A DNA stretch of 64,000 bases from Rhodoferax sp. (GTDB lineage Bacteria > Pseudomonadota > Gammaproteobacteria > Burkholderiales > Burkholderiaceae_C), in NCBI GenBank assembly GCA_031291305.1, contig JARLJH010000056.1, forward strand, positions 29,481 to 93,480, given 5' to 3'. The position numbers were made by a program, and so were the translations under genes. Of the stretch, positions 5,831 to 42,984 are shown piece by piece (the stretch's first letter is position 1; each line of letters opens with the position of its first letter). Under the pieces are notes generated by a model. That model did not search any database, was not told the origin of the DNA, and saw only the letters and a program-made list of their open reading frames with translations.

Positions 5831-5838
5831 AAAAATGT

Positions 5839-22524: not shown

Positions 22525-24531
22525 ATGAACCAGTTGCTGGCTGCGGCCTTGGTGCTGCTGGTGGGCGCTGCGCTGGCCATGCTGCCGGTCAAAAACAGCT
22601 GGCGCGCGGGATTTGGCATCGTGTCGCAAAGCGTAGCCACGCTGCTCACCTGGGTCGCCGTGCTGCCGGTGCTGGCGGGCGGCCCCGCGCCGTATGTGGA
22701 GCTGCCCTGGGGTTACCCGATTGGCGCGGTGCACTTCAAGCTCGATGCGCTGGGGGCCTTCTTCTTGAGCTGGTCGCTGCCGATGACGCTGCTGGGCGCG
22801 GTCTACGCCGTGGGCTACCTGCGCAAGTTCTTTGACGGCCCACGTCATGTGGGTGTGCACTTTGCACTGCTGAACATGATCTCGCTCTCGTTCCTGATGG
22901 TCTACACCGGTGAACACGCGGTCACCTTTTTGATGGGCTGGGAGATTGCAGCGCTGTCGGCCTGGCTGCTGGTGATTTGGGACTACACCAACCAGAAGGT
23001 GCGCTTTGCCGGCTTCAATTACCTGGTGTCCACCCACATTGGCCTGATTTTTCTGGTGGCGGCGTTCATGATTTTGTACACCCAGACGCAAAGCTGGTAC
23101 CTGGACGACTTTGGCGACTGGATGAGCACGCACCCCGGCACCATTCGCAACACGGTGTTTTTGCTGCTGCTGACCAGCTTTGGGCTCAAGTCGGCGTTCT
23201 TCCCGTTTCACTCGTGGTTGCCTCGCGCCCACGCCGCTGCACCGGCCAATGTGAGCGCGCTGATGTCGGGCGTGATCCACAAGGCGGGCCTGTTTGCGCT
23301 GCTGCATTTTTTGCTGATTCAGGGCAAGCCTGCCGCCTGGATGGGTTGGGCGCTGATTGCGTTTTCAGTCACCTCGGCGGTGATTGGTGGCCTCTACACC
23401 GTGGGCCAGCGCGACCTGAAGCGCCTGCTGGGCTACTCGTCCACCGAGAACGTGGGCATTGCCGGCATTGGTTTTGGCATTGGCACGCTGGGCCTGGCCT
23501 GGGGTGTGCCGGGACTGGTGGCGCTGGGTTTTGCTGGCGGCATGTTGCATGTGCTGAACCACGCGTTTTTCAAATGCCAGCTGTTCTATGCCGCAGGCTG
23601 CGTCTACCAGGCCAAACACGGCGTGGACATGGAGCGTCTGGGCGGCCTGGCCAAGCTAATGCCGCTCACCGCTTTGAGTTTTTTGGTGGGCGGCATTGCC
23701 ATTTCGGCCCTGCCGCCTTTCAACGGTTTTGCCAGTGAATTTTTGATCTACAGCGGACTATTCACCGGCGAAGCGCTCAACGTCTGGGCCAAGCTGCTGC
23801 TGGCCGGGGTGGCCACGTTGCTAGCCTTTGTGGGGGCGGTGTCGGCTCTGTCCATCACCCGCGCTTACGGCGTGATCTTCATGGGCAACGCGCGTGACGA
23901 CAGCTTGCCCGCAGGCCATGAGCCCAGCGGCTGGATGCTGGCCCCGCTGTTGATCCACACCGTGGGCACGGTGCTGCTGGGCCTGATGCCGGTGCTGGGC
24001 TTGGCGCTGGTGGCGGCGCCCACGCGGCTGTTTTTGCACGCTGCACCCAGCGCCGCCACGCAGCAAGCCATGCAACAGGTGCAAGACGTGCTGGGCCGGG
24101 TGAGCCTGATCAGCGTCTACGTGGCCGCGCTGATTGGGTTGGCCTGGGGTTTGCGCCAGTTGTTCAGAAGACAAAGCGCCGCCAGCGGCCCCACTTGGGG
24201 CTGCGGCTACACCGCTGGCAACGCGCGCATGCAGTACAGCGGCAGCAGTTTTGCCAAAGACTTCACCAAAAACTACCGCGGCGTGATGCTGCTGCTCAGG
24301 CGCAAAAAAGCGCCCACCGGCTACTTTCCCGACGATGCCTACGTGATCACCGACTGTGTGGACGCGGTGGAGCACCGCCTGTACAACGTGATCGGCCACG
24401 GCGATGACTCGGCCTCGCTGATCTCCAAACTGATGCACGAAGACGACCCCCGCATTGCCTTTGCCCTGGGTCTGGCCGCGCTGGTGGCGATTGCCGCCAT
24501 GGTGGTACTGGCCGAAGGAGCGCTGCAATGA
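22525..24531 (+). CDS. HyfB-type antiporter-like membrane subunit, hydrogenase-like set 1
   Basis: A 668-residue membrane protein of the NuoL/NuoM/HyfB family with about fourteen or more helices. The residues used for ion translocation in the family are present: the Glu in GWEIAALSAW, the Lys in FGLKSAFFPFHSWLPRAHAA, SGVIHKAGLF, and HAFFKCQLF. A hydrophilic C-terminal segment (TWGCGYTAGNARMQYSGSSF) and a last helix are typical of HyfB/HycC rather than NuoL. It should form part of the proton- or sodium-pumping arm. First gene of a six-gene unit whose members overlap by four bases or lie within a few bases. The symbol is withheld because the complex lacks the NiFe site. Confidence 0.88.
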   Translation: MNQLLAAALVLLVGAALAMLPVKNSWRAGFGIVSQSVATLLTWVAVLPVLAGGPAPYVELPWGYPIGAVHFKLDALGAFFLSWSLPMTLLGAVYAVGYLRKFFDGPRHVGVHFALLNMISLSFLMVYTGEHAVTFLMGWEIAALSAWLLVIWDYTNQKVRFAGFNYLVSTHIGLIFLVAAFMILYTQTQSWYLDDFGDWMSTHPGTIRNTVFLLLLTSFGLKSAFFPFHSWLPRAHAAAPANVSALMSGVIHKAGLFALLHFLLIQGKPAAWMGWALIAFSVTSAVIGGLYTVGQRDLKRLLGYSSTENVGIAGIGFGIGTLGLAWGVPGLVALGFAGGMLHVLNHAFFKCQLFYAAGCVYQAKHGVDMERLGGLAKLMPLTALSFLVGGIAISALPPFNGFASEFLIYSGLFTGEALNVWAKLLLAGVATLLAFVGAVSALSITRAYGVIFMGNARDDSLPAGHEPSGWMLAPLLIHTVGTVLLGLMPVLGLALVAAPTRLFLHAAPSAATQQAMQQVQDVLGRVSLISVYVAALIGLAWGLRQLFRRQSAASGPTWGCGYTAGNARMQYSGSSFAKDFTKNYRGVMLLLRRKKAPTGYFPDDAYVITDCVDAVEHRLYNVIGHGDDSASLISKLMHEDDPRIAFALGLAALVAIAAMVVLAEGALQ

Positions 24532-25460
24532 GCACCGTGACGTTTTTAACCGTGGCCCACATCGCCGTGGCGCTGGTCATGCCGTTTTTGCTGGTGGGGG
24601 TGATCAACCGCACCAAATCCTGGTGGGGCGGGCGCAAGGGGCCGGGGCTGTTTCAGTCTTACCACGACCTGCGCCGCCTGCTGCGCAAACGCCCGGTGGT
24701 GAGTGACACCGCCACGCCGCTGTTTCGCCTGGGGGCGTATGTGGTGCTGGTCTGCGCCTTGGCGGCGATGGCCTTTGTGCCGCTGCTGGGCCAGTTTGCG
24801 CCGCTGGCGTTTGCGCATGACTTTGTCGCCGTGGCCTACACACTGGGGCTGGCGCGTATTGTGCTCATGCTCTCGGCCATGGATGTGGGCAGCCCGTTTG
24901 AAGGCATGGGTGCGGCGCGTGAGGCCAAGTTTGGTGCGTTTGCCGAACCCGCGCTGTTTTTGCTGCTGGGCACGGTGGGTGTGGCCACCGGCTTCAGCAG
25001 CTTTGCCGACATGCTGGGCCAGCTGCACCACACGCCCACTTACGCGCTCATCGTGCTGCCACTGACGGCGGCGCTGCTGATCCTGCTGCAAACCGAGGCC
25101 GCCCGTGTGCCGGTGGACGACCCGCTGACGCACCTGGAGCTGACCATGATCCACGAGGTGATGATCCTCGACCACAGCGGCCCCGAGCTGGCCGCCATGC
25201 AGTACGCCGCTGGCCTGAAGATGACGCTGTATGCCGGGCTGATCGCCACCCTGCTCAACCCGTTTTCTCCGATGAGCGATCCGCTGGCGGCGCTGGCCGC
25301 ATCGCTGGGCATCATGCTCGCGGTGGCCGTGGTGGTGGGCTGTTTTGAGTCGCTGATGGCACGCCTGCCGCTGCCCTGGGTACCGCATTACGTGTGGCTG
25401 GCGGGCTGGCTCACGCTGGCGGCGGCAGCGGTGGTGGGCATCGCCGGAGGTGGCCTGTGA
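24528..25460 (+). CDS. HyfC/NuoH-like membrane subunit, set 1
   Basis: A 310-residue membrane protein with eight or so helices. It has the NuoH/HycD family loops GRKGPGLFQSYHDLRRLLRK near residue 36, AMDVGSPFEGMGAAREA near residue 122, and EAARVPVDDPLTHLELTMIH near residue 194, the acidic loop that couples the quinone/cluster-side chamber to the membrane arm. Its start overlaps the previous stop by ATGA. It anchors the peripheral subunits (large and small) to the membrane. Confidence 0.9.
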   Translation: MSTVTFLTVAHIAVALVMPFLLVGVINRTKSWWGGRKGPGLFQSYHDLRRLLRKRPVVSDTATPLFRLGAYVVLVCALAAMAFVPLLGQFAPLAFAHDFVAVAYTLGLARIVLMLSAMDVGSPFEGMGAAREAKFGAFAEPALFLLLGTVGVATGFSSFADMLGQLHHTPTYALIVLPLTAALLILLQTEAARVPVDDPLTHLELTMIHEVMILDHSGPELAAMQYAAGLKMTLYAGLIATLLNPFSPMSDPLAALAASLGIMLAVAVVVGCFESLMARLPLPWVPHYVWLAGWLTLAAAAVVGIAGGGL

Positions 25461-26086
25461 ACATCACCCACAACACCACCCTGGCGCTGATCGCCTGCCT
25501 GATGGCCACCGTGATCCCGGTGTTTTTTGGCAAGCTCGCCATCACCCCCAACTGGCTGAGCCTGCAGGCGCTGGCCCTTGGGTGGATCACGCTCAACAAA
25601 CACCACGAGCTGGACTTGCACGCGCTGGCGGCCGGGCTGGAGGTACTGATCATCCGCGCCTGGCTGGTGCCCCACCTGCTGCGCCGCACGCTCTCTGGCC
25701 ACAAGGCCGCCGAGCACGACGTGATGCCGTCGAACCTGTTCACCTGGGGCGTGGCGGTGACGCTGATCATTGTGGCCTTCCAGTTCGGCGATGGGGCCCG
25801 CGCCGACGTGCGCGCCCTGACTCTGGGCGTGATTGCCGCCACCGTCACCATCGCCTTCCTGCTGCTGGCCACCAACCGCGAACCGGTGGCGCAGCTGGTG
25901 GCCCTGCTGTTCATGGAAAACGCCCTGGCACTGTTCGAGTCCCTGATGCCCGAACCCTGGCCGCTGCCCGTGCACCTGGCCATCAGCACGGTGTATGTGG
26001 GCACGGTGGCGGTGGGGAGCTGGTTGATACGCAGCTCCGACGTTTCCAAGCTTTTAGCCGCCAAGCCCGGAGATCACGTGCAATGA
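25457..26086 (+). CDS. HyfE-like membrane subunit, set 1
   Basis: A 209-residue membrane protein starting with GTG in overlap with the previous stop. It has six hydrophobic segments and the HyfE/NuoK-like features: LNKHHELDLHALAAGLEVLI, VVAFQFGDG, and MENALALFESLMPEPWPLPV with the conserved Glu pair. HyfE combines a NuoK-like fold with extra helices and belongs to the ion-translocating arm of group 4 hydrogenase-type complexes. Confidence 0.82.
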   Translation: MNITHNTTLALIACLMATVIPVFFGKLAITPNWLSLQALALGWITLNKHHELDLHALAAGLEVLIIRAWLVPHLLRRTLSGHKAAEHDVMPSNLFTWGVAVTLIIVAFQFGDGARADVRALTLGVIAATVTIAFLLLATNREPVAQLVALLFMENALALFESLMPEPWPLPVHLAISTVYVGTVAVGSWLIRSSDVSKLLAAKPGDHVQ

Positions 26087-27561
26087 CCGCTTCAACTTCA
26101 ATAGCAACTTCACCCTCCACCGAAGACGTGGCGGCAAACCACCACCCTTTTGCCAGCCACATGGCCGAAGAGCTGGTGCACGGCACCCACTGGATATCGC
26201 CCGCACTGGTGGGCGTGGCGCTGCTGATGTGGCTAGCAGCGATGGGCGTGTTCCTGACCCACCCGTTGAGCGAACTGCCGCTGTACTTTGCCAACCGTTA
26301 TCTGGTGCTCGACGCCACCTCGCTGCTGTTCATTGTGGTGATCAACACCGTGTTTCTGGGCATTTGCGTCTACCTGTACTCGCGCGAGCGCAACACCCCG
26401 GCGCTGACGCTGGACATCCGCTCGCGCGCGGCGCTGATGCTATTGTTCATGGCGGTCATCAACATCGGGCTGATGGCCAACCACCTGGTGCTGCTGTGGA
26501 CGTTGATCGAGATCAGCACCCTGTGCGCTGCGCCGCTGGTGGCGCGCGGCGAGCTGACCAACCCCAAAGCGGTGGCCTGGCGCTACATGCTGTACTCGGC
26601 CATGACGCTGGCCATCACCTTTCTGGGTTTCATGGCGCTAACCCAGTCGGCCGATTTGCGTGGGGTGGAGGTGAGCTTCATGGTGGACCGGCTGGGCGAA
26701 TCGCTCACTCGCGATGCCAATGGCTGGCAGCGGCTGGGCTTGTCACTCATGTTGTTTGGCCTGGGCGGCAAGCTCGGGCTGGCGCCCTTGTATGGCTGGA
26801 TGCCCGAAACCTATGAGGCCGCACCGACCACCACCAGCGCGCTACTGGCCTCCATCCAGTTCAACATCAGCGTGGTGGCGGTGTTTCGCATTCTGCAAAT
26901 CTTTCACGGCTTTGAGTCCGGCTATGTTTCCCAAGAGCTGCTGGTGATGGGCTACTTCTCGCTGGTGGTGGCGGCCATCCAGATCATGGCCAGCAGCAAT
27001 TACAAGCGCCTGATTGCCTACGCCTGCGTCAGCTCTTCGGGGGTGATAGCGCTGGGTCTGTCGGTGGGCAAGGCCGCTGCCTACGGCGTGGTGCTGTACA
27101 TCGTGAGCAATGCGTTTGTGAAGTCGCTGCTGTTTTTGACCTCTGGGCGCATGCGCGCCGTCTACGGTACCAACGAGGTCGGCCCCTTAAGCGGCGTGAT
27201 CCGCACCTTGCCACTGGCCGGGCTGCTGTTCACGCTGGGCATTTTTGCGCTGCTGGGCTTTCCGCCCTTTGCCAGCTTTCTGGCCGAGATGCTGATCCTC
27301 TCGGGCATCGTCCAGGCCGGCAATCTGCTGGCCTTCACGCTGATGTGCGTGATGCTAACGGTGATTTTTGTCGCCACCGGGCGCACCGTGTTCCCCATGC
27401 TGTGGGGCGCGCCCAAGGTACAGGTCAGGGCACCGCGTGACCCCCGAATCACGCTGCTACCCAAGCTGGGCTTTGTCGCCATACTGGTGATGCTGGGCAC
27501 CTACACCCCCACCCCGATCACCGACTTGCTGCGCGCCGTGGCGGTGTCGATTGGGGGCTGA
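26083..27561 (+). CDS. HyfF/NuoN-like antiporter-type subunit, set 1
   Basis: A 492-residue membrane protein of the NuoM/NuoN/HyfF family, starting at an ATG that overlaps the previous stop. Ion-path residues are present: the Glu in LLWTLIEISTLCAAP, the Lys in GLGGKLGLAPLYGWMPETYE, and the Lys in SNAFVKSLLFLTSG. A hydrophilic N-terminal tail of about 35 residues (MTASTSIATSPSTEDVAANH) precedes the first helix and is longer than usual. Second antiporter-like module of set 1, so the complex could translocate ions at two or more sites. Confidence 0.87.
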   Translation: MTASTSIATSPSTEDVAANHHPFASHMAEELVHGTHWISPALVGVALLMWLAAMGVFLTHPLSELPLYFANRYLVLDATSLLFIVVINTVFLGICVYLYSRERNTPALTLDIRSRAALMLLFMAVINIGLMANHLVLLWTLIEISTLCAAPLVARGELTNPKAVAWRYMLYSAMTLAITFLGFMALTQSADLRGVEVSFMVDRLGESLTRDANGWQRLGLSLMLFGLGGKLGLAPLYGWMPETYEAAPTTTSALLASIQFNISVVAVFRILQIFHGFESGYVSQELLVMGYFSLVVAAIQIMASSNYKRLIAYACVSSSGVIALGLSVGKAAAYGVVLYIVSNAFVKSLLFLTSGRMRAVYGTNEVGPLSGVIRTLPLAGLLFTLGIFALLGFPPFASFLAEMLILSGIVQAGNLLAFTLMCVMLTVIFVATGRTVFPMLWGAPKVQVRAPRDPRITLLPKLGFVAILVMLGTYTPTPITDLLRAVAVSIGG

Positions 27562-27562
27562 C

Positions 27563-29287
27563 ATGACCCACACCACGCCAAACGCCATGCCGCCCACCGC
27601 TTCAAATGCCAGCCCAATGGTGCCGCAGGGCTTACCCCCTCTCCCTCTGGGAGAGGGCGGGGGTGAGGGCTGCCCGCAGCAAAGTAGCCAAAACATCCAC
27701 CCTCACCCTAACCCTCTCCCAGAGGGAGAGGGAATAAGTCCAGTGGCACACCTGCCAGCAACACATAAGTTACTATCAATATCAGAGCTACTTGCACAGG
27801 TAACACAAGGGCTAGAAGCCAAAAACACATTTATTTCCTTGTTTGGACGGCACGCCATTGCAGGCGAAGAAGCGGGGGTGATCGTCACCGCCGTGCTGCT
27901 CACGCCCACGGGTTTCCAGGTGCTGCGCGCCCATGTACCCAAGGGTCAAAGCTACCCCAGCCTGACCGCCCGCTTTCCCGCAGCGCAAATCTTTGAACGC
28001 GAGTTGTGGGAGCAAACCGGCCTGCTGCCCGAAGGCCACCCGTGGCTCAAACCGGTGCGTTTTGAAGGCGCGCGCCAGCAGCACATGGACGACTACCCCT
28101 TCTTCAAAGTGCGCGGGGCCGAGGTGCACGAGGTGGGCGTCGGCCCGATCCACGCCGGGGTGATTGAGCCGGGGCACTTTCGCTTCATGTGCCATGGTGA
28201 GCAGGTGCACCACCTGGAAATCCAGCTCGGCTACCAGCACCGGGCTGTGGAAGCGCTGCTGCTGCACAAGCCGCCACAGCGCCTGAGCCCGCTGGTGGAA
28301 TCCATCGTCGGCGACTCGGTCGTGGCCTACAGCTGGGCTTTCAACGCTGCGCTGGAATCTTTGGCAAATCGGCCTGTAGCCCAGGCAACACAAGGGCTAC
28401 GTGCTATTGGTTTGGAACTAGAGCGGGTTGCCATGCACCTGGCCACGCTGACCGGCCTGGCCACCGACATTGCCTACCTGCAGCCTGCGGGCACGCTGCA
28501 GCGCCTGCGCACCGCCATCATCAACGCCAGCCAGCGCGTTTGCGGCAACCGCTTTGGCAAAGGCTGGATTCGCCCCGGCGCGGCGGCGCCCATTGGCGAG
28601 GCTTTGCGGGCCGATTTGCTCAAGACCCTGCGCGCCTTCCAGACCGATTTTCTGCAAGTCAACGCGCTGCTGAGCAGCAGCCGCAGCACGCAAGCGCGTT
28701 TCAAAGGCGTGGGCACGGTGTCCACCCTGGCCGCGCAAGACATGGGTTTGACCGGCGTGGTGGCGCGTGCCAGTGGTGTGGCGCTGGATGTGCGCCGCGC
28801 CCTGCCCGATGGCCTGTATGCTGCTCACCCGCCCGAGCTGATCACGCAAGCCACGGGCGACTGCTGGGCGCGCGCGCGCCAGCGCATGCTGGAGGCTGAG
28901 GCCAGCACCCAGTGGCTGATCGACCGGCTGGCGGATCCGGCGTTGAATCTGACCGACACGCCTGCGCCGTTTGCCAAAGCCGTACCCTCCAACACCGGCG
29001 CTACCAACGTGCGCCGTGAAGGTGTGGCTCCTACAGTGGCAACCGGGTCTGCAGCGTGGGCTTTGCAAGCGAGTAGCTTGTGTGTCTCGCTGATCGAAGG
29101 CGTGCGCGGCCCGGTGATGGTGGCGCTGGAGACCGATGCCAGCGGCCAGCTCCTCCACGCCAAGGTGCAAGACCCGAGTCTGGCCAACTGGTTCGGCCTG
29201 GCCTTGGCGCTGCGCGACCAGCAAATCTCGGACTTTCCGATTTGCAACAAGAGTTTTGACCTCTCGTACTGCGGCAACGATTTATAA
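27563..29287 (+). CDS. HyfG/NuoCD-like large subunit without NiFe ligands, set 1
   Basis: A 574-residue protein: a NuoC-like 30-kDa domain (to ~165) and a NuoD-like 49-kDa domain. The group 4 motif GPIHAGVIEPGHFRF is intact at ~194-208, but the following Ni-binding RxCGxC is SIVGDS at 247-252, and the C-terminus DFPICNKSFDLSYCGNDL has no DPCxxC. It cannot hold a NiFe centre in the usual way. Residues 24-57 (LPLGEGGGEG, PHPNPLPEGEG) are the translation of a REP palindrome, and residues 71-88 and 270-285 are encoded by copies of the interspersed repeat, all without a frameshift. The NuoD helix around 275-290 still aligns with the family. The first ATG after the previous stop is used. Confidence 0.85.
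   Translation: MTHTTPNAMPPTASNASPMVPQGLPPLPLGEGGGEGCPQQSSQNIHPHPNPLPEGEGISPVAHLPATHKLLSISELLAQVTQGLEAKNTFISLFGRHAIAGEEAGVIVTAVLLTPTGFQVLRAHVPKGQSYPSLTARFPAAQIFERELWEQTGLLPEGHPWLKPVRFEGARQQHMDDYPFFKVRGAEVHEVGVGPIHAGVIEPGHFRFMCHGEQVHHLEIQLGYQHRAVEALLLHKPPQRLSPLVESIVGDSVVAYSWAFNAALESLANRPVAQATQGLRAIGLELERVAMHLATLTGLATDIAYLQPAGTLQRLRTAIINASQRVCGNRFGKGWIRPGAAAPIGEALRADLLKTLRAFQTDFLQVNALLSSSRSTQARFKGVGTVSTLAAQDMGLTGVVARASGVALDVRRALPDGLYAAHPPELITQATGDCWARARQRMLEAEASTQWLIDRLADPALNLTDTPAPFAKAVPSNTGATNVRREGVAPTVATGSAAWALQASSLCVSLIEGVRGPVMVALETDASGQLLHAKVQDPSLANWFGLALALRDQQISDFPICNKSFDLSYCGNDL
27634..27732. repeat. REP/BIME-type inverted palindrome pair inside a coding sequence
   Basis: Two units face each other: CCCCTCTCCCTCTGGGAGAG with a GGGGGTGAGGG tail, then CCCTCACCCTAACCCTCTCC followed by AGAGGGAGAGGG. 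Each unit is a hairpin, and together they form a large inverted repeat. This is a widely distributed proteobacterial intergenic element (commonly mistranslated as PHPNPLPEGEG). Here it lies in frame within the 5' end of the large-subunit gene. Confidence 0.85.
27775..27826. repeat. interspersed repeat, copy 5, in frame in the set 1 large subunit
   Basis: TATCAATATCAGAGCTACTT, then ACAGGTAACACAAGGGCTAG and AAGCC. It is in the opposite orientation to copy 3 and shares AACACAAGGGCTA with copy 6. It encodes residues 71-88 of the large subunit. Confidence 0.7.
28371..28415. repeat. interspersed repeat, copy 6, in frame in the set 1 large subunit
   Basis: GGCCTGTAGCCCAGGCAACA, then CAAGGGCTACGTGCTATTGG. 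Its first box is identical to copy 3 (GCCTGTAGCCCAGG), yet it encodes residues 270-285, which align without a gap to the NuoD family. Confidence 0.65.
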
Positions 29288-29294
29288 GCTCACC

Positions 29295-30059
29295 ATGTTT
29301 CAATCCCTCGCCGTCCGCAAAGCCCAAGGCAGCCAATTCATCCCCGACCTGCGCGCCGCCCAGCCCGGTGGCTTTCGCGGCAAACCTGTCATTGCCGATC
29401 TGGCTTGTGCCCCCAACTGCCACGTGTGCCAGGAGGTGTGCCCGACAAGCGCTATCGACTTGAAAGCAAGTTCCGCCGATCCCGTCGCCATTGATCTGGG
29501 ACGCTGCGTGATGTGCGGCGACTGCGCGCCGGTGTGCCCGAGCCAGAAATTGAGCTTCAACAACGACGTGAAGCTGTCGGCCACCACGCGCAGCGGACTG
29601 GTGGTGACCGCCGCCCGGCCCAACATCGACCCGATCAAGATATCTGCCGAATTGCACAAACGCTTTGGCAGCTCGCTCAAACTGCGCTCGGTGTCGGCGG
29701 GCGGCTGCAACGGCTGCGAGATGGAGGTCAATGCCCTAAGCAACGTCAACTTCGACCTGGGCCGCTATGGCATCGACATGGTCGCCAGCCCGCGCCACGC
29801 CGACGGCATCGTGCTCACCGGCCCGATCACCCGCAACATGGCGAAAGCGCTGCAAATCTGCTGGGACGCGATTCCTGAACCCAAGCTGCTCATCGCCGTG
29901 GGCGCCTGTGCGATTTCAGGCGGGGTGTTTGCCGACAGTGATGCCTTAGGCCGCGAGTTTCTGGACAAATACCCGCCCAGCCTCTATGTGCCCGGCTGCC
30001 CGGTGCACCCGCTGACCTTCATCAGCGGGGTGATGGATGTGCTGGGTATGACGACGTAG
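29295..30059 (+). CDS. ferredoxin-NuoB fusion small subunit (HyfH+HyfI-like), set 1
   Basis: A 254-residue protein. The N-terminal part has two 4Fe-4S sites: Cys 38/42/45/49 (CAPNCHVCQEVCP, with an unusual x3 first spacing) and Cys 71/74/77/81 (CVMCGDCAPVCP, canonical). The C-terminal part is a NuoB/HyfI small subunit with GGCNGCEMEVNAL (Cys 138, 141), the third ligand in GACAISGG, and PGCPVHP. It would pass electrons through three clusters to or from the large subunit. In E. coli Hyf the ferredoxin (HyfH) and small subunit (HyfI) are separate, so the fusion is notable. Last gene of set 1, seven bases after the large subunit. No soluble dehydrogenase follows, so the electron partner is unknown. 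Confidence 0.87.
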   Translation: MFQSLAVRKAQGSQFIPDLRAAQPGGFRGKPVIADLACAPNCHVCQEVCPTSAIDLKASSADPVAIDLGRCVMCGDCAPVCPSQKLSFNNDVKLSATTRSGLVVTAARPNIDPIKISAELHKRFGSSLKLRSVSAGGCNGCEMEVNALSNVNFDLGRYGIDMVASPRHADGIVLTGPITRNMAKALQICWDAIPEPKLLIAVGACAISGGVFADSDALGREFLDKYPPSLYVPGCPVHPLTFISGVMDVLGMTT

Positions 30060-30125
30060 GTTTAACGACGTCAAGGAAATCACGACTAGGGAAGTTTGGA
30101 CCTTGGGCTACGCCAGATAGGCGAA

Positions 30126-34482: not shown

Positions 34483-34508
34483 GCGATGCTCAGGAATGAC
34501 CCGTCGTC

Positions 34509-35768: not shown

Positions 35769-35778
35769 CAGCCAAAAA

Positions 35779-36297
35779 CTACTGAATCCTCCGCCGCACC
35801 GCCATCAGGATGCCGCGCAAAATTTCCACCGGCTCGGGCGGGCAGCCTGGCACGGTGACATCCACCGGGATGACGTTGGCCACGCGGCCACAGGTGGCAT
35901 AGCTCTCGCCAAAGATGCCGCCGTCGCAAGCGCAGTCACCGACGGCGACCACCAGTTTGGGCTCAGGCGTGGCCTCATAGGTGCGCTTGAGTGCCATCTC
36001 CATGTTGCGTGACACCGGGCCGGTCACCAGCAGCAGATCGGCATGGCGCGGGCTGGCGACAAACTTGATGCCCAGACCTTCGAGGTTGTAGTAGGGGTTG
36101 CCCAAGGCGTTGATTTCAAGTTCGCAGCCGTTACACGAGCCCGCGTCGACCTCGCGGATGCTCAGAGCATCTCCTAAAATAGATAGCAGCTCAGCCTGAA
36201 TACGCGAGGCCTCAGCCTGTTTTTCCTCACCAATATCGGGCGCAGGCTCGGTAGCGATGCCGACCCGGGCGATTTGACGGACGACTTTCCAGATCAT
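35779..36297 (-). CDS. HyfI/NuoB-like small subunit without ferredoxin domain, set 2
   Basis: A 172-residue protein beginning MIWKVVRQIARVGIATEPAP. The 4Fe-4S ligands of the NuoB family are present: AGSCNGCELEINAL (Cys 55, 58), GDCACDGG, and PGCPPEP. Residues 25-41 (EKQAEASRIQAELLSIL) are encoded by a degenerate copy of the interspersed repeat. It carries the last cluster before the large subunit. Unlike set 1 it has no fused ferredoxin and none is encoded nearby. Gene order is large subunit, this gene, then the ATP-grasp-like gene. Confidence 0.85.
   Translation of the reverse strand: MIWKVVRQIARVGIATEPAPDIGEEKQAEASRIQAELLSILGDALSIREVDAGSCNGCELEINALGNPYYNLEGLGIKFVASPRHADLLLVTGPVSRNMEMALKRTYEATPEPKLVVAVGDCACDGGIFGESYATCGRVANVIPVDVTVPGCPPEPVEILRGILMAVRRRIQ
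36177..36224. repeat. degenerate interspersed repeat inside the set 2 small subunit gene
   Basis: AAAATAGATAGCAGCTCAGC, then GAGGCCTCAGCC, resembles the family end to end, but is less conserved than other copies. It is in frame with the NuoB-like gene. Confidence 0.4.
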
Positions 36298-36307
36298 GAT
36301 GCCGTTC

Positions 36308-37894
36308 TCATAGGTCTTGCCCCGAATAGCTCAGGTTGAACGACTTGTTGATGAGCGGAAAGTCGGCCACGATGTCTTTCATGACGGCGTGCTCCAGCAC
36401 CGGCCAGTTTTGCCAGGACGGGTCGTGCAGGTGGCAGCGCTCGATGCGGTGGCCCTGTTCAGCCCCGGCGAGTTCCAGCGCCACCATGATTTCACCGCGC
36501 CAACCCTCGACCCAGCCAACGCCTCTGGTGGGCTGCTCGGGCAACATCACCTCGCTGCGCACCTCGCCCTCGGGCATTTCGTTGAGGATGCGTTCGATCA
36601 GGCGGATGGACTCGAACACCTCCTGAAAGCGCACTGACGCGCGGGCGCCCACGTCGCCTCGCACATGGCGGGCCATGACCACCCGCAACTTGTCGTAGGG
36701 CGTGAAGGGGTGGTCGCAGCGCAGGTCTCGGCTCTGCGAGCTAGCGCGCCCGGCCAGGCCGGTCATGCCGAGTTGCGCCGCCAGCGCAGACCTCACCCGC
36801 CCGGTGATCAAGAAGCGGTCTTGCAGCCCGGCATGCGACTCGAACACGTCAAACAGTTTGCGCACGTCGGGCGCCAGCACATGGCAGCGCGCCCTCAGTT
36901 GATCCCGCCCAGCAGGGTCGATGTCGCGCTGGACGCCGCCGGGCACGATGCTGTCCATCATCAGTCGATGACCAAAGGCCGCCTTGCAGGCGCGCAGCCA
37001 GTCCTCGCGCAGCCTGGAGAATTGCGCCAGGGCAAACGCAAAGGCCACGTCGTTGCCCAGCGCGCCCAAATCATTCAAATGGTTGGCAACCCGCTCGCAT
37101 TCCAGCATCAGCGCGCGCAGCCAGGCCGCACGCGGCGGGATGCGAGTGCCACAGGCTGACTCCAGCGCCATGCAGTAGCCCCATGCGTAAGCCACCGTCG
37201 AGTCGCCCGACACGCGCCCGGCCAGGCGGTGTGCTTGCAGCGGCACCATCTGCGTCATGCGCTGCTCGATGCCTTTGTGGGTGTAGCCCAGGCGCTCTTC
37301 GAGGCGCAAAATCTTCTCACCCACCACCGAAAACCGGAAGTGCCCCGGTTCGATGATGCCGGCGTGCACCGGGCCGACGGCGATCTCATGCGCGCCATCA
37401 CCTTCCACGCGTACAAACGGGTAGTCGATCAAGACACCCGGCACGGGTTCAGGCAAGGCTTGCGGGTCTTGCAGCAGTGGGAAGTGGTCTGCCGCCCAGG
37501 CGCCATGGTTGAACCAGGGGCGGGTATCACGCGCGCCCTCGGCGTGCACACCTGACAACTCGGCGGCGGCGCGCTGCATGCGGCTGACGCACGGGAACGC
37601 CGCCGACAGATCGGGATAGCCCGCACGCCCATCGTGGCTGGTCAGCGGCAGCGCCAACCAAAACAACCCATCCGGCGTGACATATGCAACAAATATGGCT
37701 GTAGCCCTCGTTCCACCTTGACTTATAGCTATATCTTCAATAGCTTTTCCAGCCCACAGTGCCACCAGCCGTCCACCGGCATCACGCACCGCTGTGGCAG
37801 CGGTTTGCCACTGCTCAGCATTAACCTGCCCGTACCACACCGGCACCAGCGCAGGCAAGGCGGCAAACTCGACATCCAGACCCGTGATCTTCAT
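36308..37894 (-). CDS. HyfG/NuoCD-like large subunit without NiFe ligands, set 2
   Basis: A 528-residue protein with a NuoC-like N-terminal and a NuoD-like C-terminal part. GPVHAGIIEPGHFRF is intact (~174-188), but the Ni-binding RxCGxC is replaced by RVSGDS at 227-232 and the C-terminal DFPLINKSFNLSYSGQDL has no cysteine. The C-termini of the two large subunits are clearly related, so both share an origin after NiFe loss. Residues 50-67 (KAIEDIAISQGGTRATAI) are encoded by a repeat copy and look like an insertion compared with the family. The nearest soluble partner is the NuoB-like subunit 10 bases downstream. Confidence 0.86.
   Translation of the reverse strand: MKITGLDVEFAALPALVPVWYGQVNAEQWQTAATAVRDAGGRLVALWAGKAIEDIAISQGGTRATAIFVAYVTPDGLFWLALPLTSHDGRAGYPDLSAAFPCVSRMQRAAAELSGVHAEGARDTRPWFNHGAWAADHFPLLQDPQALPEPVPGVLIDYPFVRVEGDGAHEIAVGPVHAGIIEPGHFRFSVVGEKILRLEERLGYTHKGIEQRMTQMVPLQAHRLAGRVSGDSTVAYAWGYCMALESACGTRIPPRAAWLRALMLECERVANHLNDLGALGNDVAFAFALAQFSRLREDWLRACKAAFGHRLMMDSIVPGGVQRDIDPAGRDQLRARCHVLAPDVRKLFDVFESHAGLQDRFLITGRVRSALAAQLGMTGLAGRASSQSRDLRCDHPFTPYDKLRVVMARHVRGDVGARASVRFQEVFESIRLIERILNEMPEGEVRSEVMLPEQPTRGVGWVEGWRGEIMVALELAGAEQGHRIERCHLHDPSWQNWPVLEHAVMKDIVADFPLINKSFNLSYSGQDL
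37696..37745. repeat. interspersed repeat, copy 7, in frame in the set 2 large subunit
   Basis: GGCTGTAGCCCTCGTTCCAC, then CTTGACTTATAGCTATATCT and TCAATAGC. Family boxes are clear. It codes for residues 50-67 on the minus strand. Confidence 0.65.
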
Positions 37895-37898
37895 TGAC

Positions 37899-39353
37899 TC
37901 AGCCTCCCAACATACGGGCTGCAGCCACGTACCAGCCGTTCAGGTACGGCGGAATGTATAGGCCCAGCGCCAAGCCTAGCGCCAGATGCACAAACACCGG
38001 AATCAGCGCGGGCGGGTGTGCCAGCGCTTTGAGGGTGGTGTCGCCAAACACCATGGGCAGCACGCGCACCAGCATCGACGCAAACGCCACGCCTAGCGCC
38101 AAAAAGAGGAACGGCGTGGCCCAGGCTTGCTCGCGCATGGCGGTGGTCAGAATCAAAAACTCGCTGGCAAACACGCCAAAGGGTGGCATGCCCGCAATCG
38201 CCATCACGCCCAGCATCATGCCCCAGCCGACGGTGGGGTTGATCTTGATCAGCCCGCGAATCTCGCTCATCACCTGTGTGCCAGCCTTTTGCGTGGCGTG
38301 CCCGACGGTAAAGAAGATGGCGGATTTGACCAGCGAATGCACCGTCATGTGCAACAGCCCGGCGAAACTGGCAATCGGACCACCCATGCCAAACGCAAAG
38401 GTGATCAAGCCCATGTGCTCGATGCTGGAGTACGAAAACATGCGTTTGACATCTTTTTGCCGCGACAGAAAAAACGCCGCCACAACCACCGACAGCAAGC
38501 CAAAACCCATCATCAGTTGCCCGGCCATCTGGGTGCCCAAAGCGCCATCGGTGAGCACTTTGCAACGCAGCACGGCGTACATGGCCACGTTCAACAGCAA
38601 GCCCGAGAGCACAGCCGACACCGGCGTCGGACCTTCGGCATGGGCGTCTGGCAGCCAGCTGTGCAGTGGCACTAGGCCGATCTTGGTGCCATAACCGATC
38701 AGCAAGAAAACAAACGCCAGCGACATGATGGTCGGATCAAGCTGCCCCTTGATGTCGGCCAGATTGCTCCACAGCAGCGTGGCGTGCTCCGAACCCAGCA
38801 CTTTGTCAGCAGCCATGTAAACCAGAATCGTGCCAAACAGCGCCTGAGCAATGCCAACGCCGCAGAGGATGAAGTATTTCCACGCGGCTTCCAGACTGGC
38901 CGGTGTGCGATAGACGCTGACCAGCAGCACGGTGGTCAGCGTGGCGGCTTCCATCGCCACCCAGATGATGCCCAGGTTATTGGTAGTCAGCCCCAGCAGC
39001 ATGGTGAAGCTGAACAACTGGTACATGCTGTGGTACAGACGCATACGCCGCGCCGTCATCTTGCCGTGGTCTTGCTCCACGCGCATGTAGGGACGCGAGA
39101 AAATGGCCGTGGTCAGGCTGACAAAAGCGGTAAGCGTGACCAGAAACACGTTGAGCGGGTCAATATAAAACTGTTTGTCCCAGATGAACTGCGGCCCCTG
39201 GTCAATCACCTGTGCCGTCATCACGCAGGCTGCCAGAAACGTGCCGAGGCTAAACGCCACGTTCACATTACGCGCGTAAGCACGATGCCCAACCCCCGCC
39301 AGCGCCAAGCCACCAAGCAATGGAATTCCAAGGAGACACAGCAGGATGTCCAT
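37899..39353 (-). CDS. HyfF/NuoN-like antiporter-type subunit, set 2
   Basis: A 484-residue membrane protein. Ion-path residues are mostly present: the Glu in IWVAMEAATLTTVLL, the Lys in GYGTKIGLVPLHSWLPDAHA, and HSLVKSAIFFTVG. The position that is Lys or His in other members is Asn in SGLLLNVAMYAVLR, as in NuoN-like proteins. Four bases separate it from the large subunit. With the HyfB-type subunit it forms the second ion-translocating module of set 2. Confidence 0.87.
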   Translation of the reverse strand: MDILLCLLGIPLLGGLALAGVGHRAYARNVNVAFSLGTFLAACVMTAQVIDQGPQFIWDKQFYIDPLNVFLVTLTAFVSLTTAIFSRPYMRVEQDHGKMTARRMRLYHSMYQLFSFTMLLGLTTNNLGIIWVAMEAATLTTVLLVSVYRTPASLEAAWKYFILCGVGIAQALFGTILVYMAADKVLGSEHATLLWSNLADIKGQLDPTIMSLAFVFLLIGYGTKIGLVPLHSWLPDAHAEGPTPVSAVLSGLLLNVAMYAVLRCKVLTDGALGTQMAGQLMMGFGLLSVVVAAFFLSRQKDVKRMFSYSSIEHMGLITFAFGMGGPIASFAGLLHMTVHSLVKSAIFFTVGHATQKAGTQVMSEIRGLIKINPTVGWGMMLGVMAIAGMPPFGVFASEFLILTTAMREQAWATPFLFLALGVAFASMLVRVLPMVFGDTTLKALAHPPALIPVFVHLALGLALGLYIPPYLNGWYVAAARMLGG

Positions 39354-39356
39354 TAG

Positions 39357-40016
39357 TTACTCATCCTTGAGCGTCTCCAGGTTGTGGATGTCCAGACTGT
39401 CGAACTTCTCGCGAATCTGGAACATGAACACGCCCAGAATCAGCACGCCCACCAGCACGTCCAGCGCGATGCCAAATTCCACAATCATCGGCATGCCACT
39501 GGTCACCGTCGTTGCGGCAAACAGCAAGCCGTTTTCCATCGACAGAAAACCAATCACCTGCGGCACCGCCTTGGAGCGGGTGATCATCATCATGAACGAC
39601 AGCAGCACGCAGGCCAGCGCAATCCCCAAGGCACCGCCCGCCACCGAATGTGACAAGCGAGAAATCGGCAATGCCAGGCTGAAGGCAAAAATCACCAGCC
39701 CAATGCCCACCAGCATGGTGGTCGGGATGTTGATCAGGGTTTCCACATCCCAGCGCACATTGAGCTTGCGAATAATGCGGTGCAGCATCCAAGGGATGAA
39801 AATAACCTTGAGCAGCAGCGTCAGCGCGCCCGAGATATACAGGTCAGGCTGGTTGGTGACATAACCCAGCAAGAACGACGCGGCCACCAACGCCGCGCCC
39901 TGAATCATGAACAGATTGATCAGAGACACAATGCGCCGCTGCGAGATCATGGCAAAGGACAGCAACAGGATCAGTGTCGCAAACAGGTTGATCAACTGGG
40001 GCACGTACTGGATCAT
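39357..40016 (-). CDS. HyfE-like membrane subunit, set 2
   Basis: A 219-residue membrane protein with seven hydrophobic segments. HyfE features are seen: RRIVSLINLFMIQGAALV, SLALPISRLSHSVAGGALGI, and MENGLLFAATTVTSGMPMIVEFG with the conserved Glu, then DVLVGVLILG. It is longer and better preserved than its set 1 counterpart at the N-terminus. Its start overlaps the stop of the NuoH-like gene by ATGA. Confidence 0.83.
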   Translation of the reverse strand: MIQYVPQLINLFATLILLLSFAMISQRRIVSLINLFMIQGAALVAASFLLGYVTNQPDLYISGALTLLLKVIFIPWMLHRIIRKLNVRWDVETLINIPTTMLVGIGLVIFAFSLALPISRLSHSVAGGALGIALACVLLSFMMMITRSKAVPQVIGFLSMENGLLFAATTVTSGMPMIVEFGIALDVLVGVLILGVFMFQIREKFDSLDIHNLETLKDE

Positions 40017-40963
40017 TTGTTCCCCAGCAGCACGTTCACCAGCAGGCCAATCACCCCCAGCAGGAAAGCCGTGCCCAAAAATTCAGGCACGCGAAAAATC
40101 CGCATCTTGGCGCTGGCGGTCTCAATCATGGCCAGAAGCATGCCGCCCACCGCCAGCTTGAACACCAGCACCGGCAAGGCCAACAGCAAGGCCAGCGGCG
40201 CATCGGCCTCGGCCACACCCCAGGGGAAAAACAGCGCCAGCCCAGCACAGGAATAGGCAAACAGCTTGAGGCTGGCGGCCCATTCCATCAGCGCCAGGTG
40301 GCGCGCCGAGTACTCCAGGATCAGCGCTTCATGGATCATGGTGAGCTCAAGGTGCGTGTCGGGGTTGTCCACCGGCACGCGGGCGTTTTCCGCCAAGGAC
40401 ACCATGGTGAAGGCCACGCCAGCCAGCAGCATGCTGGGGTAAATGGCCAGATCGCGGTGCGCCAGCGTCTCCACAATGGTTGTCAGCGAGGTAGAGCCGG
40501 TGATCATCGAGGCGCAGAAGAACACCATCAGCAGCGCCGGCTCGGCCAAAAATCCCACCAGCATTTCACGGCGAGCGCCCATGGAACCAAAAGCGGTGCC
40601 CACATCCATGGCCGCCAGCGAGATGAAGACGCGAGCCAGGGCAAACAGGCCCACCAGCGCAATCGCATCGGCTGCCGGGGACAGCGGCAGATCAGTGGAC
40701 AGCGTCGGGATGATGGCACTGGCCAGCAACATGCAACCAAACACCACATAGGGCGAAAACCGGTACAGCGAGGAGGCGTGCTCGGCCATCAGCGACTCTT
40801 TGTTGAACAGCTTGTGCAACATGCGGTAGGGTTGCAGCAGGCCCGGCGCCGACTTGTTTTGCAGCCAGTGTCGCCATTGGTTGACCCAGCCAGTCAACAA
40901 GGGTGCCAACACCAATGCCGTCAGCAAGGCCAGCAGTTGCGAGAAAACGCCCAGCGCGCTCAT
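40013..40963 (-). CDS. HyfC/NuoH-like membrane subunit, set 2
   Basis: A 316-residue membrane protein. The loops are those of the NuoH/HycD family: NKSAPGLLQPYRMLHKLFNK near residue 35 (where set 1 has GRKGPGLFQ), AMDVGTAFGSMGARREM, and ENARVPVDNPDTHLELTMIH near residue 195. The start at ATG overlaps the HyfB-type stop by four bases; longer in-frame extensions are not family-like. It anchors the peripheral subunits. Confidence 0.89.
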   Translation of the reverse strand: MSALGVFSQLLALLTALVLAPLLTGWVNQWRHWLQNKSAPGLLQPYRMLHKLFNKESLMAEHASSLYRFSPYVVFGCMLLASAIIPTLSTDLPLSPAADAIALVGLFALARVFISLAAMDVGTAFGSMGARREMLVGFLAEPALLMVFFCASMITGSTSLTTIVETLAHRDLAIYPSMLLAGVAFTMVSLAENARVPVDNPDTHLELTMIHEALILEYSARHLALMEWAASLKLFAYSCAGLALFFPWGVAEADAPLALLLALPVLVFKLAVGGMLLAMIETASAKMRIFRVPEFLGTAFLLGVIGLLVNVLLGNK

Positions 40964-42984
40964 CGCTTCACCACCAGCAAGACCACGATCAGGGTGACAA
41001 AGCTGTACATCAGGTACACCGCAATGCGCCCCTGCTGCAACAACCCGACGATTCTGGACACCCATTCAACCAGCCGCGCCACGGGCAGATACAACCAGTG
41101 CCACAGCGGGTCTTCCAGCTTGACGCCATAGGTGGGTTTCTCGTCAAAAGCGCTGGGCAACTGTCGCGTCACGCGGAAAAACGCCTCGAAAATCTGCCGG
41201 ATCGGCTGACCAAAGCCTTCGGCAGTGTCTTGCATGCGCGCCGTTTGCCAAGGGTGACCGCAGTCCCATGGCGGCACACGCCGCAGACGCCCGTGGTAGA
41301 GGCGGCGCACCAGCACAAACGCCAAGCTAAAACTCAGCACTACTCCCAGCAGGAAAATCGCTGGCGCATAGCTGGCACGATCCACACTTACCGGCACCAG
41401 CAGCCAACTGCTGTCAGCCACCATGTGTGCCAGCCCGGCACCCACCAACCGTCGCGTCACCGGGTCCATCAGGGCGATCACCTGATTCGGAAACAAACCC
41501 AGCAAGACACAACCCATCACCAGCCACGTCATGCCCAGGCGATCCCAGCGCCCGCCATCATGTGCCTTGGCCAACTTTTCTTCGCGAGGCTGGCCCAGAA
41601 AAACCACCCCAAAGTACTTGACCATGGTGTAGCCCGACAGCGCGGCAATCAGGGCAATCAGGGCGGCCATTACCGGCACCAACATGTCCAAAAACGAGCT
41701 GGGCAAGCCGGTGGTGAACAAAAAGCTTTGCAACAGCAGCCATTCAGCCACAAAACCACCAAACGGTGGCAAGCCAGCACAGGCCAACACCCCGACCAGG
41801 GTCAGCCAGCCCACCCAAGGCATGGTGCGAATCAAGCCACCGAGCTTGCCCAGGCTGCGCTCACCCGTGGCATGCATCACCGCGCCGGTGCTACAGAACA
41901 GCAAGCTCTTGAAGAAGGCATGGCTCAGCATGTGGTACAGCGCCGCTGTCAACGCCAGGGCTGACAGCGCCTGCATGCCATAGCTGGAAAACAACAATGA
42001 CAAGCCCACCCCGGCGCACATCAGACCAATGTTTTCGATGCTGGAGTACGCCAGCAGGCGCTTCATCTCAACCTGGACGGTCGAAAACACCACACCAAAC
42101 AACGCCGTGGCCAAGCCTAGGCCCATCAGCATCACACCCCACCACCAAATGCGGGTTTGCAGCAGATCAAACCCCACCCGCAAGATGCCGTACAGCGCAA
42201 TCTTGAGCATGACGCCACTCATCAGCGCCGACACTGGCGAAGGCGCTGCCGGATGCGCCTCTGGCAGCCAGGCGTGCAAGGGCAGCAGGCCAGCTTTGGC
42301 ACCAAACCCGAACACCGCCAGACAGAAGGCCACCGAGGCCCAGAAAGAATCCAGATGTTGCGCTCGCATATTGGCAAAGGTGTAATCACCGGTGTTGGCC
42401 TGCAGCACACCAAAACACAGCAGAATGCCCAAAGCGCCGATGTGCGCGACCAACAGGTACAGGTAGCCGGCGTTGCGAATCTCGGGAATGCGGTGGTTGG
42501 ACAGCACCAGAAAGAAAGACGAGAACGCCATGGTTTCCCACATCACCATGAACACATAGGCATCGTCAGCCAGCACCACCATCGCCATGCTGGCCAGAAA
42601 CACGTGGTACTCCAGGCAAAGCAAACCGGGTGGTGTGCCCTCGCCCTGGCGGAAGTAACCGGCGGCAAAGGTGGACACCCCGGCCGACACGCCGCCAATC
42701 AGCAGCAGAAAGAAAGCCGACAGACTGTCCAGCCGCAGATGGAAAGGCAATTGCGGCAGCCCCAGGGGCAGCACCGCGACTTCCGGACTGGCAAATGCCG
42801 CGCTCAACGCCACCGCCATCAGGAGCACGGAAAATACCGCGCCCAAAGGAAACAGGACGGTGGCAACGATTCGGAACCGGCGCAACGCCGCAATACCTGC
42901 CAAGCCAATCAACAGCCAAGCGACCACAACCAGCAACACCCAATCCAGATGGATCCATGGGGTTGCAGGGTTCATGAGATTCAT
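40960..42984 (-). CDS. HyfB-type antiporter-like membrane subunit, set 2
   Basis: A 674-residue membrane protein of the NuoL/HyfB family. Present are the Glu in VMWETMAFSSFF, the Lys in FGAKAGLLPLHAWLPEAHPA, SGVMLKIALYGI, and HAFFKSLLFCSTGA. The C-terminal hydrophilic part (PPWDCGHPWQTARMQDTAEG) and a terminal helix are typical of HyfB. First gene of set 2. Two ATG candidates nine bases apart fit equally well. It is divergent from the DUF3460 gene. Confidence 0.88.
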   Translation of the reverse strand: MNLMNPATPWIHLDWVLLVVVAWLLIGLAGIAALRRFRIVATVLFPLGAVFSVLLMAVALSAAFASPEVAVLPLGLPQLPFHLRLDSLSAFFLLLIGGVSAGVSTFAAGYFRQGEGTPPGLLCLEYHVFLASMAMVVLADDAYVFMVMWETMAFSSFFLVLSNHRIPEIRNAGYLYLLVAHIGALGILLCFGVLQANTGDYTFANMRAQHLDSFWASVAFCLAVFGFGAKAGLLPLHAWLPEAHPAAPSPVSALMSGVMLKIALYGILRVGFDLLQTRIWWWGVMLMGLGLATALFGVVFSTVQVEMKRLLAYSSIENIGLMCAGVGLSLLFSSYGMQALSALALTAALYHMLSHAFFKSLLFCSTGAVMHATGERSLGKLGGLIRTMPWVGWLTLVGVLACAGLPPFGGFVAEWLLLQSFLFTTGLPSSFLDMLVPVMAALIALIAALSGYTMVKYFGVVFLGQPREEKLAKAHDGGRWDRLGMTWLVMGCVLLGLFPNQVIALMDPVTRRLVGAGLAHMVADSSWLLVPVSVDRASYAPAIFLLGVVLSFSLAFVLVRRLYHGRLRRVPPWDCGHPWQTARMQDTAEGFGQPIRQIFEAFFRVTRQLPSAFDEKPTYGVKLEDPLWHWLYLPVARLVEWVSRIVGLLQQGRIAVYLMYSFVTLIVVLLVVKR

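Follow-up and report, generated by a model that had tools for sequence, protein, structure and literature searches.

Two hydrogenase-like membrane complexes without a nickel-iron (NiFe) site are encoded in the window analysed here, a stretch of 64,000 nucleotides from a Rhodoferax sp. (assembly GCA_031291305.1, contig JARLJH010000056.1, here C22, of a genome of 4.98 Mb in 69 contigs). Set 1 (type B) lies at 22,525-30,059 on the plus strand and set 2 (type A) at 35,779-42,984 on the minus strand, and the two converge tail to tail with 5.7 kb between them. Both sets are intact and under purifying selection, and they are two old, separate branches of one NiFe-less clade of the energy-converting hydrogenase-related (Ehr) class, a class reportedly described by Marreiros in 2013. 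Judging from their sequences, both complexes would be redox-driven ion pumps acting on a substrate in a rebuilt pocket; to this reading, in which donor, substrate, ion and direction are all inferred, a probability of about 0.55 is given.

Ehr complexes occur in many phyla, where annotations call them hydrogenase 4 or NADH dehydrogenase, and no substrate is known for them. The class itself is already in print; what is added here is the tail-to-tail arrangement of two of its branches, the single iron-sulfur cluster of type A and the residues shared by the pocket. Searches of the open-licence literature turned up no report that these branches lie side by side, that type A has a single cluster, or that the replacement residues are shared. 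The near-invariant residues of both branches indicate what to mutate and where to seek a function, and a genome that holds both branches together with a true group-4-type hydrogenase offers a comparison within one cell. If type A does work with a single cluster, this would reveal how small a part of the electron chain suffices for this pump family.

Two intact gene sets with a replaced NiFe site

Both sets carry hyfB, hyfC, hyfE, hyfF, hyfG and hyfI in the same order, with neighbouring genes that overlap or nearly touch; coordinates, order and strands agree with an initial annotation of this DNA. Each set has matches to the Pfam families Proton_antipo_M, NADHdh, Complex1_49kDa, Complex1_30kDa and Oxidored_q6, and in Pfam neither HyfE has any. 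Two antiporter-like subunits, HyfB and HyfF, are encoded in each, and a third, HyfD-like gene was seen in neither. Operons of this kind, with NuoB-, NuoCD- and NuoH-like genes next to antiporter-like ones, are expected of Ehr complexes.

On the plus strand, set 1 begins with the antiporter-like HyfB (22,525-24,531; Proton_antipo_M, E 2.3e-50; key Glu and Lys kept), followed by a HyfC/NuoH-like protein (24,528-25,460; NADHdh, E 5.1e-25), a HyfE-like protein recognised by its position and its conservation in relatives, with no Pfam or NCBIfam match (25,457-26,086), and the antiporter-like HyfF (26,083-27,561; Proton_antipo_M, E 1.7e-35). The NuoCD-like large subunit HyfG ends at 29,287 and starts at 27,563 or 27,743, the start being uncertain because of an inverted repeat at 27,637-27,732, within the 5' end of the longest open reading frame (ORF); its two 21-bp arms (CCCTCTCCC...GGGAGAGGG) had no further copy in the window or in the loci fetched up to that point. 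On the minus strand, set 2 consists of HyfB (40,960-42,984; Proton_antipo_M, E 1e-50), HyfC/NuoH-like (40,013-40,963; NADHdh, E 3.2e-33), HyfE (39,357-40,016; the NCBIfam hydrogenase 4 membrane subunit model at E 3.9e-26, below cut-off), HyfF (37,899-39,353; Proton_antipo_M, E 2.9e-52; NCBIfam NF005045, 'hydrogenase 4 subunit F', 884.5 bits, above cut-off) and the NuoCD-like HyfG (36,308-37,894). The HyfI genes that close the two sets are described below with the iron-sulfur chain.

All twelve hyf genes are open, with no stop in either set. Compared with the congener G010, set 1 shows ratios of nonsynonymous to synonymous substitution rates (dN/dS) of 0.12-0.23; for set 2, compared with G024 and with G005, they are 0.04-0.14. 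The adjacent scpA, nadB and panB give 0.05-0.10. The initial annotation had concluded that selection preserved a redox-linked ion pump: open frames, purifying selection and the ion-path residues bear out the preservation, while the redox-linked pumping stays a matter of interpretation.

In the large subunit, the nickel-binding motif RxCGxC is replaced, as had been noted, by SIVGDS in set 1 and RVSGDS in set 2. All four NiFe ligands are gone from both window proteins, and neither shows the RxCGxC and DPCxxC pairs of group 4 NiFe hydrogenases. The second motif had been described as missing; its ligands are indeed lost, but the motif is replaced in place, by DLSYCGNDL in set 1 and NLSYSGQDL in set 2, where the proteins end.

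The same site was followed in an alignment to E. coli HycE, whose numbering is used here, of 175 distinct sequences (72 A, 98 B and 5 of a third kind, C), assigned to types by their identity to the window proteins and taken without the divergent L206 and L207. No ligand is kept in 158 of the 175, a single one in 17 (Cys241 in 2 A and 14 B, 16 in all, and Cys244 in L188), and never more than one. Ser or Thr occupies position 244 in 165/175, Ser position 531 in 170, and Gly position 534 in all 174 sequences with a letter there. Asp243, which is Ile or Leu in the NiFe-bearing rows, is found in 175/175, Asn525-Lys526 in 174 and Gly242 in 172, where E. coli NuoCD has Tyr. Nearly all sequences (171/175) end in Asp-Leu at the residue aligned to 537; three end after Cys534, and one B row (L092) has no C-terminal part in its frame. 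The NiFe site did not simply decay, because at most one ligand is kept yet Asp243, Asn525-Lys526 and the Asp-Leu end are near-invariant. From this pattern, we infer that the replaced residues form one pocket.

The residues of the proton route, whose roles in formate hydrogenlyase (FHL) and complex I are taken from an excerpt of PMC9474812, are kept around it: Glu193, His284 and Arg478 in all 175 sequences, Glu437 in 174 and Arg395 in 173. Asp192 is replaced by Ile throughout (175/175). The window proteins have no extension after the second motif, whereas 32 further residues follow the second Cys pair in 8/8 Hyc/Hyf-type rows. This extension does not divide Ehr complexes from all of group 4, since two NiFe rows of the type found on contig C14 of the same genome lack it too. 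AlphaFold2 models reached a mean pLDDT (predicted local distance difference test) of 79.5 for set 2 HyfG and 86.0 for set 1 HyfG, with low confidence in the beta1-beta2 loop and the last residues of both. In a fold search with the set 2 model, the best match in the PDB was 7z0s_E, the large subunit of E. coli FHL, with a template modelling score (TM) of 0.85, and a profile search of the PDB gave 290 bits for FHL HycE against 123 for MbsL.

The iron-sulfur chain differs between the sets, a point absent from the initial annotation. In set 1, a ferredoxin-like HyfH domain with two [4Fe-4S] motifs is fused to the NuoB-like HyfI with its proximal-cluster domain (29,295-30,059, plus strand; Pfam Oxidored_q6 and Fer4_7). 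In set 2, HyfI (35,779-36,297, minus strand; Oxidored_q6 only) is unfused, has no HyfH domain and holds the proximal cluster alone. Predicted from these motifs, the number of clusters is the main functional difference between the two. The four proximal-cluster Cys with hydrogenase spacing are present in 57/57 A and 4/4 C HyfI proteins picked automatically, and in type B each ligand is present in 74-81 of 85 automatic picks, some of which are wrong ORFs. A stricter pattern count found all four in 47/69 A, 71/92 B and 3/4 C downstream stretches, with no fitting HyfI ORF in 2 A and 15 B stretches. Two extra [4Fe-4S] motifs ahead of the HyfI part occur in 56/92 B stretches, in 0/69 A and in 0/4 C. 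Other carriers of such clusters were sought as ORFs of at least 55 residues with CxxCxxCxxxC[PAS]: none was found in 20 cross-family loci of the A/C branch (13-19 kb), nor, the gene of type B itself apart, in the window and the 16 genus loci read. With no HyfH and no such ORF, the A and C operons are therefore predicted to encode one [4Fe-4S] cluster.

The ion-path residues had been reported as kept, and they are: Glu of transmembrane helix (TM) 5, Lys of TM7 and Glu of TM12 are present in all four antiporter-like subunits. In TM8, both HyfB have Lys and both HyfF have Asn, as does E. coli HyfF. The loop between TM5 and TM6 of HyfC reads ARVPVD[DN]PxTHLELTMIHE in both sets, and according to an excerpt of PMC7684303 it is one of three loops that line the chamber of the membrane-bound sulfane sulfur reductase (MBS). 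As a hydrogenase-like mark this loop was rejected, for it differs from the loops of E. coli HyfC and HycD as well as from that of NuoH, and it is not used as evidence.

Two separate branches and their distribution

Trees of HyfG and HyfB had been suggested as the way to tell sister sets from separate acquisitions, and those of HyfG place the two sets on separate branches. A first tree held 87 HyfG-like proteins and a more careful one 60, leaving aside L206, L207, L226 and 24 further A or B rows. The outgroup is small and its branches are long: seven Hyc/Hyf-type proteins, two of the C14 type, E. coli NuoCD and, in the first version of the careful tree, a NuoD-like protein from contig C62 of the same genome. 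In the 60-protein tree, A, B and C group together against Hyc/Hyf, the C14 hydrogenase and the NuoD-like proteins (support 100/99), and within this NiFe-less clade A+C (100/99) and B (100/99) stand apart. The C62 protein belongs to another operon, and the tree was therefore rebuilt without it, with the same outcome (A+B+C 100/100, A+C 100/99, B 100/100). The clade lies apart from NiFe group 4 and from complex I, as expected of Ehr complexes, the published members of which are known here by description and not as named rows. Tree and ligand loss together support the earlier assignment to an Ehr type without a NiFe site.

That one set arose from the other by recent duplication is rejected, since holding the A and B proteins of the genus together costs 613 log units (approximately unbiased test, p=1.3e-4). 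Type C as a within-genus duplicate of A is likewise rejected (p=1.6e-5); in the tree it lies nearest to L240, a sequence of another family, rather than to the A proteins of the genus. Two NiFe-less large subunits from the same order, L206 and L207, have no second Cys pair, end in ASFGLTIAGCDR and TFDLSVAENDR, and sit on long branches just outside A+B+C in the 87-protein tree.

Both branches reach far beyond the genus. A scan of named sequences, aligned with the B protein first, gave at least 580 relatives, the best 80 of which fall into 18 named phyla and six records without a phylum; the lower rows of these 80 are 37-45% identical to the window protein. The A protein was searched against 299 Proteobacteria and matched in 47 other genomes at 40-61% identity; 20 of these matches were placed in the 87-protein tree, all on the A/C branch. 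Eight weaker matches (28-31%) were set aside, and the five of them that were fetched all bear NiFe ligands. Plasmids gave 87 matching records. Among the 25 listed, identities are 45-62%, the hosts are Cupriavidus, Variovorax, Paraburkholderia, Burkholderia, Bradyrhizobium and Rhizobium, and most named features under the matches read 'NADH-quinone oxidoreductase subunit C'. In Cupriavidus necator, an A-type large subunit is encoded on a megaplasmid of strain N-1 (62% identity) and on one from a second C. necator (60%).

Within the genus, HyfG searches covered 72 congeners, own genome included. Type B HyfG (at least 60% identity) was found in 18 and type A (at least 64%, in some as pieces) in 46; with a HyfE search added, type A is present in 59 of 89. 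The third NiFe-less kind, type C, is 43-46% identical to A and occurs in 5/72 congeners by HyfG (loci L081, L088, L210, L211 and L212) and in 7/89 by HyfE. Two sets side by side had been called unusual, which is too strong: 15 of the 18 type B congeners also carry A, and in 6/18 the two face each other, at gaps of about 15 bp (G060), 0.4 kb (G002), 1.3 kb (G022), 2.8 kb (G033), 5.7 kb (the window) and 7.3 kb (G064). Among the other 12 B genomes, A lies 1.9 Mb off in G010, C lies beside B with part of A further along the contig in G039, A is on another contig in seven, and no A match was found in three.

In 6/6 genomes checked (window, G010, G033, G021, G060, G039), type B follows metG at a distance of 22 bp to 7.9 kb. 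The neighbour of type A is scpA-nadB, both in the window and in eight loci of congeners (L075, L078, L079, L080 and L084-L087). From these positions, the tail-to-tail pair is therefore metG-B-A-scpA. In two genomes without B (G005, G024), the distance from metG to A is 0.6 and 4.0 kb. A and scpA are separated by type C in G013 and G071, and in G067 type C comes after A. Types A and B both come and go, because on a MetG tree type A changes state at least 14 times (79 rows) and type B 10 times (64 rows).

A proposed redox-driven pump and its alternatives

In set 1, a ferredoxin-like donor would pass electrons to the HyfH domain with its two [4Fe-4S] clusters and on to the proximal cluster, which would reduce or, in reverse, oxidise a small polar substrate at the place of the former NiFe site. 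Proton uptake by the Glu193/His284 route would be coupled via HyfC and HyfE to HyfF and HyfB, which would move H+ or Na+. Set 2 would work in the same way, with a donor that docks directly on HyfI or is encoded elsewhere, since its operon encodes the proximal cluster only. The tail-to-tail pair would be the meeting of two separate lineages between metG and scpA.

Several observations weigh against such pumps. In all three comparisons HyfG exceeds the other Hyf genes in dN/dS, which is odd for a catalytic subunit and is explained in part by its N-terminal NuoC-like domain. Decay in other strains had been named beforehand as evidence against the reading, and it was seen in one congener and for type B only: G044 (L213) has fragments of HyfG and HyfI next to its A genes. 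The canopy residue Asp529, termed strictly conserved in an excerpt of the FHL paper (PMC9474812), is Asn in 141 of the 174 sequences with a letter there (72/72 A, 5/5 C and 64/97 B), and proton chemistry at the site may therefore differ. Finally, no recurring gene among the A neighbour ORFs and in the loci read points to a type A donor, and type A, with its single cluster, might not accept electrons from any soluble donor.

A further, more novel reading is offered tentatively, as a less likely possibility. Type A would be a member of the complex I superfamily clipped to one [4Fe-4S] cluster, its operon lacking a HyfH/NuoI equivalent, in which the former NiFe place, with its Asp-Ser/Thr, Asn-Lys and C-terminal carboxylate, might serve as a new polar-substrate site or as a redox gate, giving the same pump a nickel- and quinone-free drive beside the ferredoxin-fed type B of the same cell.

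Type A might instead be a redox-gated or redox-free ion transporter, whose lone cluster senses the redox state and gates the antiporter-like flow with no net electron transfer. Compatible with this are the absence of HyfH and of any CxxCxxCxxxC[PAS] ORF of at least 55 residues in the 20 cross-family A/C loci, and an operon that stands alone. In a survey of 101 of 108 selected neighbour ORFs of A, based on rough gene calls, no Pfam family occurred in more than 3/101 (25 commonest of 151 families), and no recurring redox partner emerged. However, the replacement and proton-route residues are conserved to the same degree in type B, where there is an electron chain, and a donor gene may sit elsewhere in the genome, which makes a mere gate improbable.

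A quinone could also be the substrate, reduced or oxidised in a complex-I-like chamber by what would be a complex I without its NADH module. The NuoB-, CD-, H- and L/M-like subunits are common to both systems, the large subunit has a NuoD-like fold, and His284, Arg395, Glu437 and Arg478 (or Lys) are shared across the superfamily. The residues that differ make quinone an unlikely substrate: in the beta1-beta2 loop, the hydrogenase-type Glu193 (175/175) and Ile192 take the places of Gly and His in E. coli NuoCD, and Gly242 (172/175) stands in place of the NuoCD Tyr, which we take to have a role in quinone binding. HyfI has CxxC and not the tandem Cys of the terminal cluster of complex I, and an NADH module (NuoEFG) was seen among none of the 40 window ORFs scanned.

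Pyrococcus MBS is a NiFe-less relative with an antiporter arm and a proven reaction, and by analogy the proximal [4Fe-4S] cluster itself could reduce polysulfide. As described in an excerpt of PMC7684303, the MBS motif is three residues shorter, which leaves a three-Cys catalytic cluster, and two NiFe Cys are kept. Here the motif is not shortened and four Cys with hydrogenase spacing are present (57/57 A), both window proteins lack every NiFe Cys (none in 158/175 sequences, one in 17/175), and the profile score of MbsL is 123 bits against 290 for FHL HycE. The cluster-motif test thus disfavours MBS-like chemistry, which is very unlikely.

Slighter still are the prospects of a formate-linked module, in which Ehr would pair with a formate dehydrogenase encoded elsewhere. 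Excerpts of published work propose this link for Margulisbacteria and Geobacter, and Geobacter sulfurreducens makes an Ehr complex as protein, in larger amounts on formate than in the presence of hydrogen (PMC7894505). No formate dehydrogenase was found among the scanned window ORFs or in the 25 commonest families of the 101 A neighbours, the own genome not having been searched for one, and the pairing would leave the acceptor unaccounted for. That the sets are functionless, decaying hydrogenases is the least likely reading: lost NiFe ligands and the type B fragments of G044 would fit, but there are no stops, dN/dS is far below 1, A is present in 59/89 congeners, and the replacement residues are near-invariant in 175 sequences.

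Related systems, neighbouring genes and regulators

Ehr complexes without NiFe Cys are described, in excerpts of the literature, for comammox Nitrospira, Margulisbacteria and bacteria of the candidate phyla radiation (CPR), with a function unknown or not investigated; excerpts of PMC10284858, PMC6349859, PMC12361115 and PMC7304191 were drawn on as well. Compared by description, these share with the window a group-4-like operon and the absence of NiFe Cys, and the window differs in its two branches in one genome, tail to tail, and in a type A without HyfH. A hyfBCEFGI operon of Nitrospira, described in an excerpt of PMC5596200 as a putative group 4 hydrogenase, has by that description the same gene list as set 2, with no hyfA, hyfD or hyfH named. 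By profile and fold, the closest solved large subunit is that of E. coli FHL (7z0s_E). The proton-route residues are shared with FHL/hydrogenase 4, but here the NiFe Cys are replaced, the 32-residue extension is absent, and no HyfA-, HycB- or FdhF-like gene was seen nearby.

A canonical NiFe large subunit elsewhere in the genome, had it paired with these membrane genes, would have spoken against the two sets. One exists, on contig C14 (L006/L069), a group-4-type protein with the ligands RICSLC and DPCISC, but it lies in an operon of its own, with a 1279-aa fused antiporter-like protein and NuoH-, NuoB-, dicluster ferredoxin- (two [4Fe-4S]), NuoC- and NuoD-like genes. The pairing is rejected: the C14 enzyme does not need sets 1 and 2, because its operon has membrane genes. 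A further complex-I-type operon lies on contig C62 of the same genome (G000; L073, about 1624-9827). Its antiporter-like protein of 1041 aa has two Proton_antipo_M stretches, its NuoB- and NuoD-like proteins lack the NiFe ligand pairs (RVCVPE), and an oxidoreductase with Fer4_20 and Pyr_redox_2 is encoded downstream; a NuoD-like match of 402-410 aa was also found in G002, G005, G022 and G024.

Across 89 congeners, type A coincides with NiFe hydrogenase (51/59 genomes with A against 13/30 without, p=3.9e-5), NifH (18/59 against 1/30, p=0.0024) and RuBisCO (43/59 against 13/30, p=0.010), and shows no association with SoxB (27/59 and 15/30). The NiFe hydrogenase label was set by hand at a best E below about 1e-11, and absences are uncertain where a genome is incomplete; with the 50 most complete genomes alone, NiFe hydrogenase gives p=0.017, NifH 0.043 and RuBisCO 0.24. 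Once kinship is counted on the MetG tree, median p is 0.25-0.63 for the three, with few informative pairs and low power, and guilt by association is not upheld; because the co-occurrence fades in this way, no functional link is claimed for A. That tree holds 79 of the 89 genomes, leaving out eight without a MetG match and two with C-terminal pieces only (G031, G035), and uses one of two pieces for G013, G052, G064 and G065.

Helix-turn-helix (HTH) genes beside hyfB suggest, as far as gene position can tell, a control of the operon in part of its range. Of the 58 B loci that include HyfB and reach 1 kb or more upstream, 21 (e.g., L094 and L118) have a gene with HTH_17 and PTS_EIIA_2 domains just ahead of hyfB and in its orientation; two of these genes were scanned with Pfam. 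Read from stop to stop, its ORF overlaps that of hyfB or ends no more than 0.7 kb from hyfB. No such gene was found in the window or in any of the genus loci. A small HTH gene lies upstream of hyfB in 6/20 cross-family A loci (L227, L228, L230, L232, L233, L237), with HTH_3 in the one scanned. An ORF like SulP-family transporters was seen, as a raw count, in 9/80 B loci (L093, L095, L105, L122, L123, L132, L134, L143, L146), two of them Pfam-scanned.

The Pfam scan of the window covered 40 ORFs, the 12 of the two sets and 28 others; MetG, LysR, NadB, PanB, 58,936-61,563 and several short or doubtful ORFs stood outside it. Among the 28 others, no hyp, formate dehydrogenase or NuoEFG family was found, in line with the absence of maturation genes, formate dehydrogenase and NADH module stated in the initial annotation. 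Ten bp downstream of set 2 hyfI, a 419-residue ORF (34,509-35,768), which we take by impression to be ATP-grasp-like, has no Pfam match and is absent from the congener loci read. Of the six genes between the sets, only that for a cytochrome b561 was met in a congener locus read, once. Upstream of set 1, on the opposite strand, lies an AbiV-type HEPN gene (20,803-21,621), recognised by Pfam.

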